Shown piece by piece: positions 13,104 to 22,209 of a stretch of DNA of 23,792 nt. The translations under genes and the position numbers were made by a program. Numbering within the stretch: the stretch's first letter is position 1; every line of letters starts with the position of its first letter. The stretch is taken from positions 1-23,792 of the IMG/VR virus record IMGVR_UViG_3300042894_000330; one strand, 5' to 3'. This stretch comes from a virus. Below the pieces are notes generated by a model. That model worked only from the letters and a program-made list of their open reading frames with translations. It was not told the DNA's origin and made no database searches.

Positions 13104-13331
13104 ATGAACACTCCAACCATGCAAACCATTGAAAACATTAGGGAAAAGGCTGAGAAAGCTGGCTACACCATTACTGATGTTGCCCGTCATGCTGGCTTTG
13201 ACCCCTCTCAGGTATCTCGTTACGCCACTGGTAGAACCATACCATTGGTGACTTCAATACAACGGCTAGAAGAATCGGTAGATTCCCTTATTCAGCAACG
13301 TCTTATGGCTTTAAACAAAGGTACAGAATGA
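13104..13331 (+). CDS. XRE-family transcriptional regulator (repressor-like)
   Basis: This is a 75-residue protein made of little more than one helix-turn-helix domain: ITDVARHAGFDPSQVSRYAT (residues 23-42) contains the two helices that bind the operator. There is no C-terminal cleavage or dimerisation domain as in lambda CI, so it is closer to Cro-size proteins. I take ATG 13104 and not TTG 13098, because the promoter predicts an RNA beginning at about 13102 and there is no ribosome site, so the message is probably leaderless. Its stop overlaps the next start as ATGA. It probably binds the TTGACTA sites just upstream and chooses between leftward and rightward transcription. Confidence 0.8.
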   Translation: MNTPTMQTIENIREKAEKAGYTITDVARHAGFDPSQVSRYATGRTIPLVTSIQRLEESVDSLIQQRLMALNKGTE

Positions 13332-13819
13332 CCACTCAATTCTTCACCCCCAAACGCATCATTGGCATTGATGTAGGGCTTAACGGCGCTATAGCCATGA
13401 TGAGAGGTGAAACATTAACTGGTGTAGTCGATATGCCAACTGTCACCCTAACTCGCAATGGCAAAGCTAAGAGGCAAATTTCCATCCCTGAACTGATTGA
13501 AATACTTGAGTTGTTCAAGCCTGAAGAGGCTTTTATAGAGCGTGTTTTTGCTAGAAGTGGGCAGGGCGTTACCAGCGTTTTTAGCTTTGGCAGAAGCCTT
13601 GGTGCGATTGAGGGAGTCATTGCCGCAAGGTCAATTAAGACTACCCTTGTTCTCCCTCAAGTTTGGCAGAAAGCTATGGGAGTTTCAGGCGGCAAAGATG
13701 GCGCTAGAGCAAGGGCAATGGAAGTCTTTCCTTGGAATGTTGACCTGTTCAAAAGAGTTAAAGATGATGGTCGTGCTGATGCAGCACTCATTGCTTGTTG
13801 GGGGTTAAGGCATGGCTAA
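13328..13819 (+). CDS. RuvC-like Holliday-junction resolvase
   Basis: This is a 163-residue protein with an RNase H fold signature: IIGIDVGLNGAIAM gives the first acidic residue D15, AFIERVF gives E71, and KDDGRADAALIACWGL gives D147 and D151, the usual catalytic set of RuvC enzymes. GQGVTSVFSFGRSLGAIEG lies between as in bacterial and phage RuvC. It would cut branched DNA made during replication and recombination before packaging. It is coupled to the regulator by ATGA and overlaps the next gene by 8 bases. Confidence 0.85.
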   Translation: MTTQFFTPKRIIGIDVGLNGAIAMMRGETLTGVVDMPTVTLTRNGKAKRQISIPELIEILELFKPEEAFIERVFARSGQGVTSVFSFGRSLGAIEGVIAARSIKTTLVLPQVWQKAMGVSGGKDGARARAMEVFPWNVDLFKRVKDDGRADAALIACWGLRHG

Positions 13820-14609
13820 TCCATTTGAGATCAAAGAACCTACCTGTATCAGCTTCTCAGGCGGTAGGACTTCTGCTTATATGCTTTACAAGGTGTTAGA
13901 GGCTAACCAAATGACACTGCCAAAGCAAGCAAAGGTGATTTTCTGTAATACAGGAAAAGAGCATGAATCAACATTAGATTTTGTCAGAGACATAGAGAAA
14001 AATTGGAATATTCCTATTGTTTGGCTTGAATACGCTAGGAATGAGGCTAAATTTAATGTTGTAAACCACACGACAGCCAGCAGAAACGGCGAGCCTTTTG
14101 CCGCTTTGATTGAGTCCCGTAGCTTTTTGCCCAATTCAGTTATGCGATTCTGCACCACAGAATTAAAGATTAATCCAATTAATCGTTATATGGCATCTAT
14201 TGGCTTTCCTGAGTTTCAAACAATGGCAGGGATTAGGGCAGATGAACCCCGCAGAGTTGTAAAACTAAGAGAAACCTTAGTTGCGCCACTTGCCATAGCT
14301 GGTGTAACTCAATCCCATGTTCAGGCTTTTTGGAAGGCTAACAGCTTTGATTTGGGTCTTGAGTTCAGGGATAAGATTACCCCATTAGGAAACTGCGATT
14401 TGTGCTTTATGAAGGGCGCACATCAGTTAATGAGCATCATCCAGCAAGAACCCAAACGGGCTATTTGGTGGGCAGAACAGGAAAAGAAGATAGGCGGCAG
14501 ATTCTCAAAAGACCGACCCGACTACACTCAAATGATGAATTTCGGCATTAACCAAACTGATATGTTTGATGCAACAGAGGAAACAATCGCTTGTTTCTGT
14601 GGAGATTAA
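13812..14609 (+). CDS. PAPS-reductase/ATP-pyrophosphatase family protein
   Basis: This is a 265-residue protein. SFSGGRTSAYML (residues 14-25) is the PP-loop of the adenine-nucleotide alpha-hydrolase superfamily. FCNTGKEHESTL, RFCTTELK (C114) and GIRADEPRR (140-148) are further conserved parts of PAPS-reductase-like proteins. Two extra cysteine pairs, C195/C198 (NCDLC) and C261/C263 (CFCGD), could hold iron-sulphur or zinc. Known members activate sulphate, nucleobases or tRNA bases by adenylation. In phages the true substrate is generally unknown. No DndA, DndD, DndE or deazaguanine genes lie nearby, so a complete DNA phosphorothioation system is not supported. Confidence 0.75.
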   Translation: MANPFEIKEPTCISFSGGRTSAYMLYKVLEANQMTLPKQAKVIFCNTGKEHESTLDFVRDIEKNWNIPIVWLEYARNEAKFNVVNHTTASRNGEPFAALIESRSFLPNSVMRFCTTELKINPINRYMASIGFPEFQTMAGIRADEPRRVVKLRETLVAPLAIAGVTQSHVQAFWKANSFDLGLEFRDKITPLGNCDLCFMKGAHQLMSIIQQEPKRAIWWAEQEKKIGGRFSKDRPDYTQMMNFGINQTDMFDATEETIACFCGD

Positions 14610-14813: not shown

Positions 14814-15030
14814 CAAAGAACGGCAAACCTTGCGTGAGCATATCGTCTGGCTTGGCTCACAACTTGAGCAAGAACGCAAGCAGAACCAGCAGACTATCGT
14901 CTTCATAAAGCGTCTGCTAGACCCTGAAGACTTGGGTCATGCAGTCTCAAATGAAACAAGGCAACTCGCCTATCAACTACTCATTGAAAACCATCACATT
15001 GAAAGAGCATCATGGCAATCAAACAATTAA
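14806..15030 (+). CDS. Small hypothetical helical protein
   Basis: I choose ATG 14806 (MDDKERQTLREHIVWLGSQL, 74 residues), which overlaps the end of the membrane gene; the longer frame upstream is that gene's shadow. The protein is highly charged and helical, with a probable coiled coil in the first 35 residues, and ends IERASWQSNN. It overlaps the nuclease gene by 19 bases. I recognise no domain. Position in the recombination operon is the only clue to its role. Confidence 0.6.
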   Translation: MDDKERQTLREHIVWLGSQLEQERKQNQQTIVFIKRLLDPEDLGHAVSNETRQLAYQLLIENHHIERASWQSNN

Positions 15031-16100
15031 GCCTTAGAGCATCATCAGCATCCCGATGGATTGCCTGTCCTGCCAGTGCAAGACTCTCAGCACTCATGCC
15101 CTACGTTGAGGGTGGAGAAGCGGCAAAGATCGGGACTGCCATTCATGCCTTGGCGGAGACTTGCTATCAGTTGGACTCTGACCCCATGAAGTCAGTCGGT
15201 ACAGTCGTTGAAGGTATCAAGATGACTGAGGAAAACTGTGAGATGGCGCTAGAGCATCTGAAAGCTATTTGGGCTATAGAGGATGAACTTGGCAAGGGTA
15301 GCGTCACAGTCGAGAAGTTCCTGCAATACCAAGACACTTATAAAGCCAAGGTAGGCGGCACTACTGACGTAATTGGAGTCAGCAAACAGAAACGCAAACT
15401 CATCATTGCAGATTTGAAAACTGGTCGTGGATATGTTGACGCTGACAATGACCAGCTACGCCTTTACGCATTGGCTGCATTTGAAGATGGCAACCTGTAC
15501 CAAGACATTGATAAGGTCGAGTTGTGGATTATCCAACCGCATCATGGTGAGACTCGTAAGCACTCAATGACAACGCAAGAACTCGTGGATTGGGAGCATT
15601 ACATCCTAGTCCCTGCAATTGAGAATGCACTCAATCCCCTGTTTCAACCAGTGCCATCAGACTCTGCTTGCCAATACTGCAACGCAAGAACTATCTGCCC
15701 TGCACAAGCAAACATCGCTGAAGTTGTAGCCACTGCACCCCCTGTAGAGATGCTCACAGAGAGTCAAATCAGCGTCTTGCTGACTAAGTTTGACATGGTT
15801 GAGGGCTACATCAAGGCGGTGAGAGATCATGCCCTTAAACGCATGGAATCAGGCTCAGTCATTGATGGATGGCAACTGCAACCTAAGAGAGCGTTGAGGT
15901 CGTGGACTGATGAGAAAGAGGCTTATGCTGGACTCTTGGCACTTGGACTTGACCCAAGGCAAGTAACGAAGACCGAACTCATCACCCCTGCACAAGCTGA
16001 GAAACTGCTAACAAAAGACCAAAAGCCTAGCCTTGAAGCGTTAACTTCCCGTATATCCAGCGGATTAACGCTTGCACGTGACAAAGGTTTGACTCAATAA
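15012..16100 (+). CDS. PD-(D/E)XK nuclease with Fe-S cysteines (DUF2800/Cas4-AddB-like)
   Basis: This is a 362-residue protein. ASSASRWIACPAS gives C19; GTAIHALAE (41-49) is the conserved histidine motif; VGGTTDVIG (D119) and IIADLKTGRG (D134, K136) form the PD-(D/E)XK active site; DQLRLYALAA (147-156) is the QxxxY-like motif. CQYCNARTICP gives C220, C223 and C229, which with C19 make the four-cysteine iron-sulphur pattern of AddB and Cas4-type nucleases. It probably resects DNA ends to 3' single strands for recombination. The SSB-like gene just downstream supports that. It is DUF2800-like in phage annotation. Confidence 0.82.
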   Translation: MAIKQLSLRASSASRWIACPASARLSALMPYVEGGEAAKIGTAIHALAETCYQLDSDPMKSVGTVVEGIKMTEENCEMALEHLKAIWAIEDELGKGSVTVEKFLQYQDTYKAKVGGTTDVIGVSKQKRKLIIADLKTGRGYVDADNDQLRLYALAAFEDGNLYQDIDKVELWIIQPHHGETRKHSMTTQELVDWEHYILVPAIENALNPLFQPVPSDSACQYCNARTICPAQANIAEVVATAPPVEMLTESQISVLLTKFDMVEGYIKAVRDHALKRMESGSVIDGWQLQPKRALRSWTDEKEAYAGLLALGLDPRQVTKTELITPAQAEKLLTKDQKPSLEALTSRISSGLTLARDKGLTQ

Positions 16101-16170: not shown

Positions 16171-16764
16171 ATGAACTTAAACCTCTCAAACTCTGGCGGC
16201 TCTGGTAACTACATCCGCTTCTCCCCCCAAGCTAACGCTTGGTCAAACCAAGATGGTGAATTTGTCTTAGAGAAATTTGTATTCGATCACGAGAACTTGC
16301 AAACTGGTTGGATGTTGATTGCAACTGGAGTCTTTGAATTCCAACCTGATGAGTCTCTTGGTCGCAAATCAGCGCAGCCATCACCCGAACATAAGAGGGG
16401 CTTCAAAGCAGTGTTTTATAACAAACAGATGAATGTGGCGGAATTTAGTGCTAACGGTGCAGGCGCTAACATGGGCTTGGAAGGTCTGTGGAAGCAAGTG
16501 CAAGCGCAAGCTGGCGCCAATGTGGGTAAGTTGCCTGTGGTCGAGTACACAGGCTCACGCCCCGAAAAGGTTGGCAAGGGTAGCACCCGTGTACCTGAGT
16601 TCACTGTCACAGGTTGGGTAGCTAGACCCGCGGCTTTGCAAGAAGGTGCAGCGCAAGCAGAACCTGAGTTCTCTGCGCCAGCACCAGCCGCTAAACCCGC
16701 ACCTAGCAAGCCAGCACCCTCTAAGCCAGCACCATCACTTGATGATGACGAGATGTTTAGCTAA
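16171..16764 (+). CDS. SSB-like single-stranded DNA-binding protein
   Basis: This is a 197-residue protein. The N-terminal 150 residues are a beta-rich domain with aromatic residues (NYIRFSPQANAWSNQDGEF). A flexible Ala/Pro/Lys linker with a repeated SKPAP unit follows, and the end is acidic: LDDDEMFS. Globular domain, proline linker and acidic tip ending in Phe is the layout of SSB proteins that recruit partners through the tail. No family match can be proven by eye. It sits between the end-resecting nuclease and a transcription terminator, with AAACAGGAAA upstream of the ATG, which suits a recombination and replication role. Confidence 0.7.
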   Translation: MNLNLSNSGGSGNYIRFSPQANAWSNQDGEFVLEKFVFDHENLQTGWMLIATGVFEFQPDESLGRKSAQPSPEHKRGFKAVFYNKQMNVAEFSANGAGANMGLEGLWKQVQAQAGANVGKLPVVEYTGSRPEKVGKGSTRVPEFTVTGWVARPAALQEGAAQAEPEFSAPAPAAKPAPSKPAPSKPAPSLDDDEMFS

Positions 16765-16836: not shown

Positions 16837-18858
16837 ATGTCAGCACAAGAAATAGCGTCCATCTTGGGTAACGCAAAGAAAGTTGGTGGTGGTTACCTAG
16901 CTAGTTGCCCCGTACCTAGTCATGGGCAAGGCAACGGAGACAAGCACCCAAGCCTGTCTATCACCATGTCGGATGATGGCAACCCCCTGTTCAAATGTCA
17001 TGGTGGGTGCGATCAGCATACAGTCTTCTCAACTATCAAAGAGATGGGACTCTTGCCAGCATTACCCGACAGACCTGACTACCTCGACAGTATCAAACCA
17101 ATGAAGCCAATCCCACTCATCTCTACGCCTGTGCTAGAGCATGAATGGCACTACACAGATGAAGATGGCATCAGCCTGTTCATCAAGCAAAGATTCAAGA
17201 CCTTTGACTCTAAAGGCAAGACATATAAGACCTTACGAGTCATGCCTGATGGCACAAGAGTGGGCAAGTTGGGAGATTGCAGACTCGTACCCTACAAGTT
17301 GCCCGATCTGCGACAGGCTACTGCCGCTGGAAGGGTTGTCTACATTACAGAAGGTGAGAAGGCGGCAGATGCCTTGGGCAGCTTGGGCGTGGTAGCTACG
17401 ACAAGTCACGCTGGCGCTGGTGGTTGGAATGATGAGTTAAACCAATACTTTAAAGATGCTAATGTGGTAATCGTGCCTGACAATGACCTAGTAGGTTGGC
17501 ATTACGCCTCAAAGGTTACTGAGGCACTCATACCATTTGCCAAAAGCGTCAGAGTCTTGGACTTGAACCTAAGTAATCCCAAAGAAGACGCTTACGAGTG
17601 GGTCAATAGATACGATGGCAGCAGAACCTTGCTGGCGCAAATAGCCAAAGCCTGTCCTATCGTTAAGTCACCAGAAGAAGTCTGGACTCCGCAAAGGCTA
17701 AGTCTTTATGTCCCTGAGACTCCACAAGAATCTGAAGAACCTCCCAAATCCAAGTTCATGGTCGAGTCATGGGACTCAATCAAGGATGAACCAGTTGAGT
17801 GGTTGGTTGAATCCATCATCCCCAAACGTAGTTTCGTAGCCCTGTTTGCACCCCCTGCCAGTTGGAAGTCATTTATAGCCTTGGATTTGGCAGAGGCAAT
17901 CGCTACAGGTCGTGAATGGATGGGCTACAAAATACCCAAGAAAGGCGCTGTATTGTTCATATCAGGTGAGGGTCATGGCGGTATGGGCGCAAGGGTTAAG
18001 GCTTGCAAAATACAGAATAACAGTCCAGATGGGGCAAACCTGTACGTCATCAGAGCGCAAATTAACATCAGATCAAGCCAAGAAGACTTTGATGCCTTAA
18101 CCAGCGCAATCAACGAGTTAGTGGCGCAAATTGATGAACCACTTGAAATCATCATCCTAGATACCTTGATGCGTATGAGTGGCGGTAACTTCAACGAGAA
18201 TTCCTCGGAAGATATGGGCGGCTTTATCGCCCAAACAGGCAAGCTGCAGCAACTCTACAACTGTGCCTTGATGGTCATTCACCACTCAGGCAAGCACATA
18301 AAGGGACTAAGAGGTCATAGTTCGCTGCTTGGTGCTGTAGACACTGAACTTGAAATACAGCGTCAGGATTCGGTTATCAACTCGGCAGACCCGTCAGTTA
18401 TAGGCAATGCAGTCCTCAACGTGTCAAAACAGAAAGATGGTGCAGACTCCATAGCCGTGGGCATTGAGGTCGTACTGGTGGAGATTGGGACTTCAACGCT
18501 AGGCTTTGAAATCACCACCTCATTAGCCGTGAGGCATAACCCTGAGATCGCCAGTAGCAACTCAAAAGGCAACAAAAACAACGCTGGTAGCGGTGGAAAT
18601 CAGCGGATTGAGATGGATTCGTTAATGAAAGTAATTAAAGCTAAAGGCTCATATCGTGAAGTAGATGGTACTAGTAGGTATGGAGTGGCTTTGGACGATT
18701 GGAGAGCAGAGTTTTGGGGCATGAAAGGCTGTACTGAGGATGATAAAGCAGCCTTTAAGAAAGCATGGCTACGAGCAAGGGAGAGACTTGTAGCCGTAAA
18801 TAAGATTGTTATAGGCTCTGGTTGGGTGTGGTTGAAGTCCAATTCAGAGGCTTTCTGA
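16837..18858 (+). CDS. Primase-helicase (CHC2-type zinc finger, TOPRIM, RepA/AAA-type ATPase)
   Basis: This is a 673-residue protein of three parts. A zinc-binding N-terminus has C24, H29, C54 and C58 (CPVPSHG and FKCHGGCDQ). A TOPRIM primase core follows, with VVYITEGEKAADAL (E172, E174) and VIVPDNDLVG (D215, D217). The helicase-type ATPase has a P-loop APPASWKSFIAL (338-349), Walker B LEIIILDTLMRM (D442) and VIHHSGKHIKG (480-490). A C-terminal part (about 600-673) could bind DNA. It would prime and unwind DNA at the phage origin. The P-loop has Trp where Gly of GKS is usual, a variant I recall in some phage RepA-like ATPases. No DNA polymerase is in view. Confidence 0.88.
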   Translation: MSAQEIASILGNAKKVGGGYLASCPVPSHGQGNGDKHPSLSITMSDDGNPLFKCHGGCDQHTVFSTIKEMGLLPALPDRPDYLDSIKPMKPIPLISTPVLEHEWHYTDEDGISLFIKQRFKTFDSKGKTYKTLRVMPDGTRVGKLGDCRLVPYKLPDLRQATAAGRVVYITEGEKAADALGSLGVVATTSHAGAGGWNDELNQYFKDANVVIVPDNDLVGWHYASKVTEALIPFAKSVRVLDLNLSNPKEDAYEWVNRYDGSRTLLAQIAKACPIVKSPEEVWTPQRLSLYVPETPQESEEPPKSKFMVESWDSIKDEPVEWLVESIIPKRSFVALFAPPASWKSFIALDLAEAIATGREWMGYKIPKKGAVLFISGEGHGGMGARVKACKIQNNSPDGANLYVIRAQINIRSSQEDFDALTSAINELVAQIDEPLEIIILDTLMRMSGGNFNENSSEDMGGFIAQTGKLQQLYNCALMVIHHSGKHIKGLRGHSSLLGAVDTELEIQRQDSVINSADPSVIGNAVLNVSKQKDGADSIAVGIEVVLVEIGTSTLGFEITTSLAVRHNPEIASSNSKGNKNNAGSGGNQRIEMDSLMKVIKAKGSYREVDGTSRYGVALDDWRAEFWGMKGCTEDDKAAFKKAWLRARERLVAVNKIVIGSGWVWLKSNSEAF

Positions 18859-19012: not shown

Positions 19013-19669
19013 ATGGTTAGATCAAGGTCGAGAAAAGATGTTCCAGATGTTCAAGTACCTAAACGTCAGGCAACGCAGTGGGAGATTCAGTCTAATGCTG
19101 TACTGGTTGAACTTGAGCGTAAAAAGGGTCAGCACTACGAGAAATGGGGAGTTGACCGATTGATTACTTTAGTTGACATTGAGTTTAGGACTAAGTTTTG
19201 GGTTCAGATGGGTAGAGTTTGGGATGCCGTGGACTTGGGTGACATTGATAGGCTGCATAAAGCAGTCAATGGAATGTGCAAGGGTTTCGATGCTTTGGAG
19301 ACTTGGGCTTTAGAAAATGAGATTGAACCCAACCCATCAATCCAGTTCCTTGAGTGGAAGTCAGTCCGAGGTGTACCGATGGTAGTGGTCAGGACTGAAG
19401 CTGATGCGGTTGAACTCCAGACCCACCGCAAAGACATAAGCAATGGCAACATCTGGACTCTTGAGGAGATTGAAGTGTTCCTGCAAGAGCCGCAAGTCCA
19501 AGAGATCATCAAGCTGAAGGCACTTGTGCCAACAGCAAGGATTACTAAGTTCACGCCCAAAGAAGGGTTTGGTCAGGGTTCAGGGTTTGATGACATGGAA
19601 AGCGATCTGGATGCGATCTTCTCTGGTGAGCCTTATGAGCCTAAGTACAAGCCTTTGAATCGTGGCTAG
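19013..19669 (+). CDS. Hypothetical protein following the repeat array
   Basis: This is a 218-residue protein with AAGGAG about 9 bases before the ATG. The N-terminus MVRSRSRKDVPDVQVPKRQA is basic. The body (about 40-130) is helical with WGVDRLITLVDIEFRTKFWV and KAVNGMCKGFDALETWA, a pattern I have seen in other phage hypothetical proteins. The C-terminal part ends in an acidic stretch (DDMESDLDAIFSG). I recognise no catalytic motif. It lies between the repeat array and the DnaA-box region, so a link with replication initiation or packaging should be considered, but this is inference. Confidence 0.7.
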   Translation: MVRSRSRKDVPDVQVPKRQATQWEIQSNAVLVELERKKGQHYEKWGVDRLITLVDIEFRTKFWVQMGRVWDAVDLGDIDRLHKAVNGMCKGFDALETWALENEIEPNPSIQFLEWKSVRGVPMVVVRTEADAVELQTHRKDISNGNIWTLEEIEVFLQEPQVQEIIKLKALVPTARITKFTPKEGFGQGSGFDDMESDLDAIFSGEPYEPKYKPLNRG

Positions 19670-19865
19670 ACCCCCGACTACAACCACAGTCCAGTTCAGG
19701 CGCAAGTTGACTGATGCCGATAGGACAATCCTGCTTTGCGCTGGCAAGGGAAACATCAGCAATGGGTTTAAGAATGTCTTGGATTGCTACGCAATCTTGT
19801 GGGAACTAGGATACCGCCCTAAAGCCGATCTTAGGGATTTCTTAGGGGTAGACAAGGATAGCTAG
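19662..19865 (+). CDS. Small hypothetical basic protein
   Basis: This is a 67-residue protein with GTG start at 19662 overlapping the previous stop by 8 bases. It begins M(V)ARPPTTTTVQFRRKLTDA and is basic, with helix-like segments further on (NGFKNVLDCYAILWELGYRP). I see no known domain. It is the last gene before the 650-base non-coding region and stops at 19865, right where an inverted-repeat structure begins. A regulatory or DNA-binding role is possible. Confidence 0.6.
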   Translation: MARPPTTTTVQFRRKLTDADRTILLCAGKGNISNGFKNVLDCYAILWELGYRPKADLRDFLGVDKDS

Positions 19866-19977: not shown

Positions 19978-20093
19978 AATTACAATGTAATCTAAACCGC
20001 ATTGCGATGACAGTCCCCCAATAAAGCACCCACCGCCTCTCTCCCTCTCCGCCCACCGCCCAAAAAATCCTTTTCAGATTGAGAAATGCCAAG

Positions 20094-20326
20094 TTATCCA
20101 CAGGTTATCCACAGATCGGAGGGCAAGTTATCCACAATTTGCCAATCTGGTTTCATTTCCTGTCACAGTTTGCAGATGCGTGTAACACTTTCAGATATTT
20201 AAAGTTAACATAATGGATGTTGTATAAAACCGTTTTTGTAAGTATTCTGTAAGCGTTTTGTAAATGTCCAATAGAATCAACAACTTACAGAAGTTATCCA
20301 CAGAATCCACAGTTGCCTGTGGATAA
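20094..20326. other. Candidate replication origin with five DnaA boxes
   Basis: Perfect DnaA boxes TTATCCACA occur at 20094-20102, 20105-20113, 20128-20136 and 20294-20302, and a fifth on the minus strand at 20318-20326. The first two are spaced 11 bases. A degenerate AATCCACA lies at 20304-20311. Between the groups is an AT-rich stretch (about 20190-20270) that could melt, with TGTAAG-type repeats at 20237, 20248 and 20259 spaced 11 bases and an inverted CTTACA at 20284. The last two boxes form 12-base perfect inverted arms (20292-20303, 20317-20328). This is the architecture of a bacterial origin and suggests that host DnaA starts phage or plasmid-like replication. Confidence 0.75.
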
Positions 20327-20368
20327 CTCGGCGATTTTTGGACGGGGGGGGAGGGGGTGGTCGCTGGT

Positions 20369-20516: not shown

Positions 20517-20957
20517 GTGAAGATAGAGCAGATTGACAGTATCCAAGACGAGGTAGACCAACCGACAACTGAAAAGAAGAAGGCTGGCAGACCCAAGGGT
20601 GTATTTGGCTTAAAGCGTCAGATACAGGAGTACGCAAGGAATCCTGACTTGGCGCTTCCCAAGACTGACAACCAGCGCATCAAAGACCTGAAGGATATGC
20701 TCATCAGGTCGAGTGGCAAGGATGTTGTCGAGAAGATGATCTCAATAGCGTTGAACGACAACCACCCTGCTCAAATGGCAGCTATCAAGATGTGTGTAGA
20801 CCGCACCCTGCCTGTATCCATGTTTGAGAAGGATAAGAGCCAGAGGAGTGCAATCCACATTAATATCACGGGCATAGGCGCACCCACAGTAGCCACAACG
20901 ACAATTGACGCTGAAGAACCCAAAGACATAGAAGACATAGAGGCTAAAGATGGCTGA
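20517..20957 (+). CDS. terS: Small terminase subunit
   Basis: This is a 146-residue protein starting at GTG 20517, with AAGGA 6 bases upstream. The N-terminus is charged, and KKKAGRPKGV (about residues 21-30) is an AT-hook-like basic segment common at the start of phage TerS. The central part (RIKDLKDMLIRSSGKDVVEK, AAIKMCVDRTLPVSMF) is the helical oligomer region; the C-terminal 25 residues are very acidic. TerS would recognise the packaging site and form a ring that activates the large subunit. It overlaps terL by 8 bases. Position before TerL makes the call likely though the family is diverse. Confidence 0.8.
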   Translation: MKIEQIDSIQDEVDQPTTEKKKAGRPKGVFGLKRQIQEYARNPDLALPKTDNQRIKDLKDMLIRSSGKDVVEKMISIALNDNHPAQMAAIKMCVDRTLPVSMFEKDKSQRSAIHINITGIGAPTVATTTIDAEEPKDIEDIEAKDG

Positions 20958-22209
20958 CTTGAACTTTGCGCTACTGCCTTGGCAGCAGGAGGTCTATGCC
21001 GACAAGACGAGGTTCAAGGTCGTGGTTGCTGGCAGGCGGTGCGGTAAGTCAAGACTTGCGGTAACGACTCTATTAATAGAGGGGTTGAGTTGCCCTGCAG
21101 GTAGTGCGGTGCTGTATGTGGCGCCGACTCAGGGACAGGCTAGACAGATTGTGTGGGATGTTTTGCTTGACGTAGGCAGGGAGATTATTCAGAGCAGCCA
21201 TGTCAACAACATGGAAGTGACTCTTATTAACGGAGCAAAGATATATGTAAGAGGCTCAGACAGACCTGATACTTTGCGTGGAGTCTCATTGACTTACGCC
21301 GTACTGGATGAGGTAGCTGACATTAAGCCTGAGACTTGGGAACAGGTAATTAGGGCAAGTTTGTCAGACAAGAAGGGTAAAGCCATGTTTATCGGCACAC
21401 CCAAGGGTAGGAACTGGTTTTTTGATTTGTACAACTTAGGGCAAGAGGGGAGTGACCCTGATTGGAAATCGTGGCACTTTACGACTCAAGACAACCCTTT
21501 GATCGACCCTAGTGAAATCGAGAGTGCGAAGAAGACCCTAAGTTCGTTCGCCTTCAAGCAAGAGTATATGGCATCTTTTTCAAATGCTGGCTCTGATGTA
21601 TTCAAGGAAGAATGGATTAAGTACGGGGAAGAACCTGAGTATGGTTCTTACTTTGTAGCTGTTGACTTGGCTGGATTTGAGGAAGTAGCTAGACAGGCGG
21701 CTAACTCGAAGAAGCGTCTTGACCAGACTGCCATTGCTGTGGTTAAGGTGACTGATGAGGGCAAATGGTTTGTTAAAGAGATTGTTTATGGGCGTTGGGA
21801 CATTCGGGAGACTGCGGCAACTATTCTGCTGAAGATGCGGGAATACCGCCCTTTGAGTGTTGGAATTGAGCGAGGTGCGTTAAAAAACGCTGTTTTGCCT
21901 TATTTGAGTGACCTAATGAGGAAAAATAATGTATATTCGCACATAGTTGACTTGACGCATGGCAACAGGAAAAAGACTGACAGAATTATCTGGAGTCTCC
22001 AAGGAAGGTTTGAGCATGGGCGTATTGTGCTGAACTCTGAGGAAGATTGGGATGAATTCAAAGATCAACTTTTGATGTTCCCCGCCCAAGGTGTTCACGA
22101 TGACTTGCCTGATGCTCTTTCCTACATTGACCAACTGGCGATAACCTCTTACTTCCAAGATGACCAAGAAGATGAGTGGGAGCCTTTAGACATAATAAGT
22201 GGCATTTAG
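20950..22209 (+). CDS. terL: Large terminase subunit
   Basis: This is a 419-residue packaging motor. The ATPase part has a Walker A VVAGRRCGKS (25-34), Walker B YAVLDEVAD (D120, E121) and coupling motif FIGTPKGR (147-154). The nuclease part has the RNase H-type acidic residues D239 (FVAVDLAG), E307 (VGIERGA) and D384/D385/D388 (HDDLPDAL). The enzyme pumps DNA into the prohead through the portal and cuts the concatemer. Length is compact but complete. The gene follows terS with an 8-base overlap and precedes the portal region. Whether packaging is headful or site-specific cannot be read from the sequence. Confidence 0.97.
   Translation: MADLNFALLPWQQEVYADKTRFKVVVAGRRCGKSRLAVTTLLIEGLSCPAGSAVLYVAPTQGQARQIVWDVLLDVGREIIQSSHVNNMEVTLINGAKIYVRGSDRPDTLRGVSLTYAVLDEVADIKPETWEQVIRASLSDKKGKAMFIGTPKGRNWFFDLYNLGQEGSDPDWKSWHFTTQDNPLIDPSEIESAKKTLSSFAFKQEYMASFSNAGSDVFKEEWIKYGEEPEYGSYFVAVDLAGFEEVARQAANSKKRLDQTAIAVVKVTDEGKWFVKEIVYGRWDIRETAATILLKMREYRPLSVGIERGALKNAVLPYLSDLMRKNNVYSHIVDLTHGNRKKTDRIIWSLQGRFEHGRIVLNSEEDWDEFKDQLLMFPAQGVHDDLPDALSYIDQLAITSYFQDDQEDEWEPLDIISGI

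Follow-up and report, generated by a model that had tools for sequence, protein, structure and literature searches.

What use does a small tailed phage, known from metagenomes only, have for five perfect DnaA boxes packed into a stretch between its replication and packaging genes, and might its replication start there? The window (i.e., the whole stretch of DNA that was analysed, a virus record of 23.8 kb) contains five TTATNCACA sites, all of them within 20094-20326:

20094..20102, + strand: DnaA box 1, TTATCCACA; spacing the same in most relatives
20105..20113, + strand: DnaA box 2, 11 bp from box 1
20128..20136, + strand: DnaA box 3, 23 bp from box 2
20294..20302, + strand: DnaA box 4, inside the 12-base arm 20292-20303
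20318..20326, - strand: DnaA box 5, inside the 12-base arm 20317-20328

An earlier note on this DNA had described five perfect boxes flanking an AT-rich stretch, two of them within 12-base inverted arms and no gene inside, and all of this was borne out: the boxes are exact and are the only such sites in the window, the arms (AGTTATCCACAG at 20292-20303, CTGTGGATAACT at 20317-20328) form a perfect inverted repeat, and no ORF of at least 60 aa overlaps the block. Five perfect copies of TTATCCACA in 233 bp have a Poisson probability of ~4e-16, and none of 400 Markov simulations placed even two in one 233-bp stretch; in the shuffle check that the note had proposed, five TTATNCACA sites anywhere in the window were reached in 2 of 100 whole-window shuffles. 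Against permuted 9-mers, boxes were not significantly avoided in the rest of these genomes. The GC-skew check, also proposed there, revealed no switch at the block, but skew says little here because almost all genes in the window point one way.

Upstream of the boxes lie the genes of DNA replication, and downstream lie a putative terS, TerL and the portal gene:

13328..13819, + strand: RuvC-like Holliday junction resolvase
15012..16100, + strand: PD-(D/E)XK exonuclease (DUF2800)
16171..16764, + strand: probable ssDNA-binding protein (SSB), from its position and acidic tail; no family match
16837..18858, + strand: primase-helicase with an AAA_25 (RepA-type) ATPase domain; DNA-primase families match residues ~100-280
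19013..19669, + strand: 218-aa protein with no recognised initiator fold, between the helicase and the candidate origin, kept in groups A and B
20517..20957, + strand: putative terminase small subunit (terS), from position and co-variation; no family match
20950..22209, + strand: terminase large subunit (TerL)

Relatives of this phage have circles of ~34-36 kb, and we take the map of one of them, G016, to be complete and circular because 99 bases at its two ends are identical. A PAPS-reductase-like gene (13812-14609) sits between the RuvC-like and exonuclease genes, and box-less relatives have one too. The 67-aa protein encoded at 19662-19865, 5' of the candidate origin, is 54% identical to short proteins encoded ahead of the packaging genes of G016, and short ORFs that look similar are present in L283 and G018, which lack boxes. 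One 41,153-base contig (L041/L277) carries two different primase-helicase copies 33 kb apart, and is probably an assembly that ran round a circular genome and joined two strains.

Between and around the boxes, further elements are arranged as in a bacterial or plasmid origin:

20187..20295, no strand: AT-rich, probable unwinding element (DUE), from a nearest-neighbour stability profile
20236..20253, + strand: two direct TGTAAG repeats, TTGTAAG at 20236 and CTGTAAG at 20247
20275..20287, + strand: IHF consensus AATCAACAACTTA (WATCAANNNNTTR), a predicted site with a perfect match
20284..20291, - strand: third TGTAAG repeat, inverted, CTTACAGA, overlapping the end of the IHF consensus

The interval between boxes 3 and 4 is AT-rich, and the stability profile, a check suggested in the earlier note, places the start of the 100-bp minimum of the window at 20196. 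The strict IHF consensus, which is found elsewhere in the window too, is kept at this position in 44 of 44 relatives, with changes among the N4 spacer bases and, at the R position, an exchange of A and G. We consider 20094-20326 to be probably the origin of this phage, of a bacterial or plasmid type and opened by host DnaA and IHF, where the binding of DnaA and IHF, the need for DnaA and the start point are what we infer from this arrangement. Host DnaA would occupy the direct boxes 1-3 at one flank and boxes 4 and 5 at the opposite flank, with host IHF bending the DNA from its site at 20275; DnaA and IHF together would melt the AT-rich DNA at ~20187-20295. The phage primase-helicase, which is also described as TOPRIM/AAA_25 and is probably the helicase loaded at the origin, would then be loaded, and the host polymerase would copy the DNA. 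Phage P1 offers both a parallel and a warning. Its lytic replicon, oriL/repL, likewise combines DnaA sites, an IHF site and AT-rich DNA; when two DnaA sites and an IHF site of the presumed oriL were mutated, RepL-driven amplification was not significantly reduced (PMC9948254), and DnaA and IHF sites can thus be dispensable. The P1 sites, however, lie within repL, whereas the block described here is intergenic, conserved and without repL.

The direct TGTAAG repeats are possibly iteron-like or DUE repeats, and this raises a less probable reading, though one to be taken seriously, in which the block is an origin but a phage protein initiates, e.g., the 218-aa protein (19013) acting on these repeats, with DnaA and IHF merely assisting as in iteron plasmids. 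The repeats (two direct, one inverted) are conserved in groups A and B, the same groups that encode the 218-aa protein, and group C lacks both. Iteron plasmid origins of the pSC101 and P1 oriR type also have DnaA boxes, IHF, an AT-rich stretch and short repeats in common with the block, but the phage block comes without a recognised Rep initiator gene or ParA, and its repeats are few and short. Moreover, the AlphaFold model of the 218-aa protein (pLDDT 80.6) is a generic helical bundle with no recognisable initiator or winged-helix match, the protein matches no Rep family, and G016 has the boxes without a recognisable homologue of it. An initiator fold was also sought by structure comparison and found no convincing match in the PDB, the VIA-align rows being generic helical bundles; matches in BFVD were, with few exceptions, phage proteins that are uncharacterised, and one among them carries the annotation terminase small subunit.

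An origin of the bacterial type is supported by how the site is inherited. At least two boxes are present in every one of the 62 helicase relatives (49-95% identity) whose contigs extend at least 1459 bases past the helicase, and they sit ~1.2-1.6 kb downstream of it. Most close relatives share the box spacing of 11/23/166/24, and column conservation in the aligned block is highest at the boxes, the TTAACATAATGG core and the IHF consensus. Where the earlier note suggested looking for relatives that had lost the boxes despite having the same replication genes, the opposite was found: where TerL is 87-99% identical, all phages with the primase-helicase have boxes (18 of 18) and none without it does (0 of 22; Fisher 9e-12), and the box-less ones have an alternative module comprising a Sak-like annealing protein, a RecE-like exonuclease and a replication-initiation-like protein. 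Among named phages with related helicases, no DnaA boxes were found in Vibrio phage 1.210.O or MW202711, and CRP-811 has two scattered ones; comparison with cultured phages and plasmids returned box-level matches alone as candidates for a homologous origin.

The type of putative terS also tracks the presence of boxes, and packaging and replication are partly confounded within group A because terS type follows the same split. We weighed the block as a signal for packaging (cos or pac) or for injection (a stop signal like that of T5), and regard this as very improbable. The block adjoins the terminase genes, several contigs terminate in the region, and conserved G-rich and C-rich blocks flank it; the injection stop signal of phage T5 is itself a non-coding block with DnaA boxes and inverted repeats (PMC13250531), a precedent indicating that phages may put DnaA boxes to other uses. 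But contig ends here are scattered over hundreds of bases rather than meeting at a single point, phages that have no boxes but a TerL 88-91% identical manage packaging without the block, and, unlike the T5 signal, the presence of the module tracks replication genes and not TerL type. A cos or pac site was also looked for as a pile-up of contig ends (ends of contigs, not of virions), and none was seen. The conserved C-rich and G-rich blocks (20014-20062, 20342-20360), in which GGGGGGAGGGGGTGG is nearly invariant, lie on either side of the origin candidate and possibly have a G-quadruplex or packaging role.

More distant phages separate the module from its neighbours. In group B, whose helicase is ~50% identical, the same core lies between the boxes; the module is placed after the terS-like gene and before the next large gene, unlike its position relative to the packaging genes in group A, which again speaks against a packaging signal. 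Two members of group B, L065 and L085, carry the entire module in inverted orientation with the direction of the surrounding genes unchanged, which is easier to reconcile with an orientation-independent origin than with a promoter or a packaging signal. DnaA is also a transcription factor, and the block sits between early and late genes, such that the boxes might titrate DnaA or control a late-operon promoter rather than start replication; we think this very unlikely, however, given the flips in orientation, the conserved DUE and IHF site and the tie to the primase-helicase, and because the single promoter-like site is weak, lies on the minus strand and does not exceed what shuffles give. A bacterial-type origin is thus well supported by conservation, by joint inheritance with the primase-helicase, by the DUE and the IHF site and by orientation-independence. 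Since several divergent phage lineages have retained the site, it is probably host DnaA that starts replication.

The association of boxes and module does not depend on having searched for boxes. A signature picked without any DnaA box (TTAACATAATRG...ATCAANNNNTTRC) retrieved at least 120 viral contigs, and among the matches listed, 112 of 119 signature sites have a box no more than 250 bp away, box density being 5.8 per kb at these sites and 0.007 elsewhere. An unbiased search for box clusters likewise returned at least 120 viral contigs, and the matches listed include many phages with ~55% identical TerL and clusters near terS, with the IHF consensus occurring near box clusters at 0.51 against 0.04 per kb. 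Box clusters are thus not rare in phages, and the finding is the conserved module. Several phages with ~55% identical TerL (L101, L115, L185, L087 and L131) have six to eight or more boxes beside terS, and L101 has two separate clusters.

The module holds one further element, which resembles the site at which XerC and XerD act:

20203..20230, - strand: dif-like element with an XerD-type arm, TTATGTTAACT (10/11), the centre CATCCA and a weak XerC-type arm, GTTTTATACAA (3/7)

Read backwards, the invariant TTAACATAA gives the inner XerD arm of dif, and the arm is near-invariant across group A in sequences that were not selected for it. In group C, whose helicase is ~28% identical, AGTGCGTATAA-CACCCA-TTATGTTAAAT lies beside the boxes with 6-7 of 7 positions of the XerC arm matched, and in two members (L377 and L429) the dif arms match at 18 of 18 scored positions: the most conserved element of the module is, in one lineage, an almost perfect match to a host-type dif (XerCD) site. 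For reference, chromosomal dif was recovered from genome data in 20 of 56 genomes, and in none with a reversed control. An unrelated 155-kb viral contig (L112:184-400) has five DnaA boxes adjoining two near-perfect dif sites, GGTGCGCATAA-GACATA-TTATGTTAAAT at 276 and the other at 372.

Xer sites are common on plasmids. The block might be, in first place, a Xer site (dif or cer type) serving to resolve multimers of the circle or to integrate the phage at the host dif, with the DnaA boxes and IHF as accessories. We judge this unlikely, despite the dif-like cores of group C, the near-invariant XerD arm of group A and the finding of no integrase in 46 viral records: the XerC arm of the window matches at 3 of 7 positions, its total dif-like score is reached by chance elsewhere in the window, and the AT-rich minimum and the link to the primase-helicase would go unexplained. 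The window element may still be a Xer site, by its position and by homology, i.e., its synteny with lineages in which dif is near-perfect. Its central hexamer differs from the chromosomal dif centre, which would make resolution of circles more plausible than integration. Among the genomes sampled, no integrated copy came up with the signature (369 of the class) or with the helicase (399 of the order), and the search for a host through the order of a lake MAG met no closely related helicase (best 36%). Known users of host XerCD at dif, the IMEX phages such as CTXphi and the enterogokushoviruses (PMC5357621, PMC7062461), share with the module a dif-like site and the lack of an integrase, but they are filamentous phages or microviruses, whereas the module is that of a tailed phage with no integration seen and a weak XerC arm in the window. 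Unlikely, but worth stating, is a combined reading in which ~250 bp form a host-run replicon, with its DnaA boxes, DUE, IHF site and a Xer site of dif-like kind, that DnaA starts and XerCD either resolves as circles or integrates at dif.

The genes that were not found in these phages agree with reliance on the host. The earlier note had remarked on the lack of a phage polymerase or classical initiator, and this extends to the complete circular G016, in which neither a polymerase nor an integrase, ParA or Rep initiator was recognised; Pfam searches of 33 of its ORFs, ten of them also searched against PHROGs, named no polymerase or initiator, and the scanned genes of the window gave no Rep-family match either. 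Family-A polymerase was absent from 28 records, tyrosine integrase from 46 viral records and ParA from 23. Their absence fits dependence on the host replisome and leaves the plasmid or cell-cycle lifestyle envisaged earlier unsupported. The term chromosome-style, also used there, is apt in part: perfect DnaA boxes adjoin an AT-rich minimum and an IHF consensus as in oriC, but, unlike oriC, the phage block has no dnaA-type gene that was found next to it, is linked to a phage primase-helicase and contains the dif-like element. The check for acquisition from a host oriC, also proposed there, gave no sign of a copy in the genomes sampled, with the module signature in 0 of 369 genomes of the class, tandem boxes in 1 of 41 genomes of the order and no sequence likeness past the boxes at 42 genome loci.

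Cumulatively, these phages probably leave the start of replication to host DnaA, and the results suggest that host DnaA drives the replication of a phage without its own polymerase. If the XerCD reading were true, tailed phages that have no integrase, partition or polymerase genes would be using Xer in a lifestyle not recognised before, and if the dif-like element works, a single 250-bp phage element would use both the chromosome-start and the dimer-resolution systems of its host. For a phage group without a cultured close relative, the block supplies a defined origin candidate, and phages that share near-identical packaging genes but have either of two replication modules, with DnaA boxes accompanying just one of them, constitute a natural experiment.
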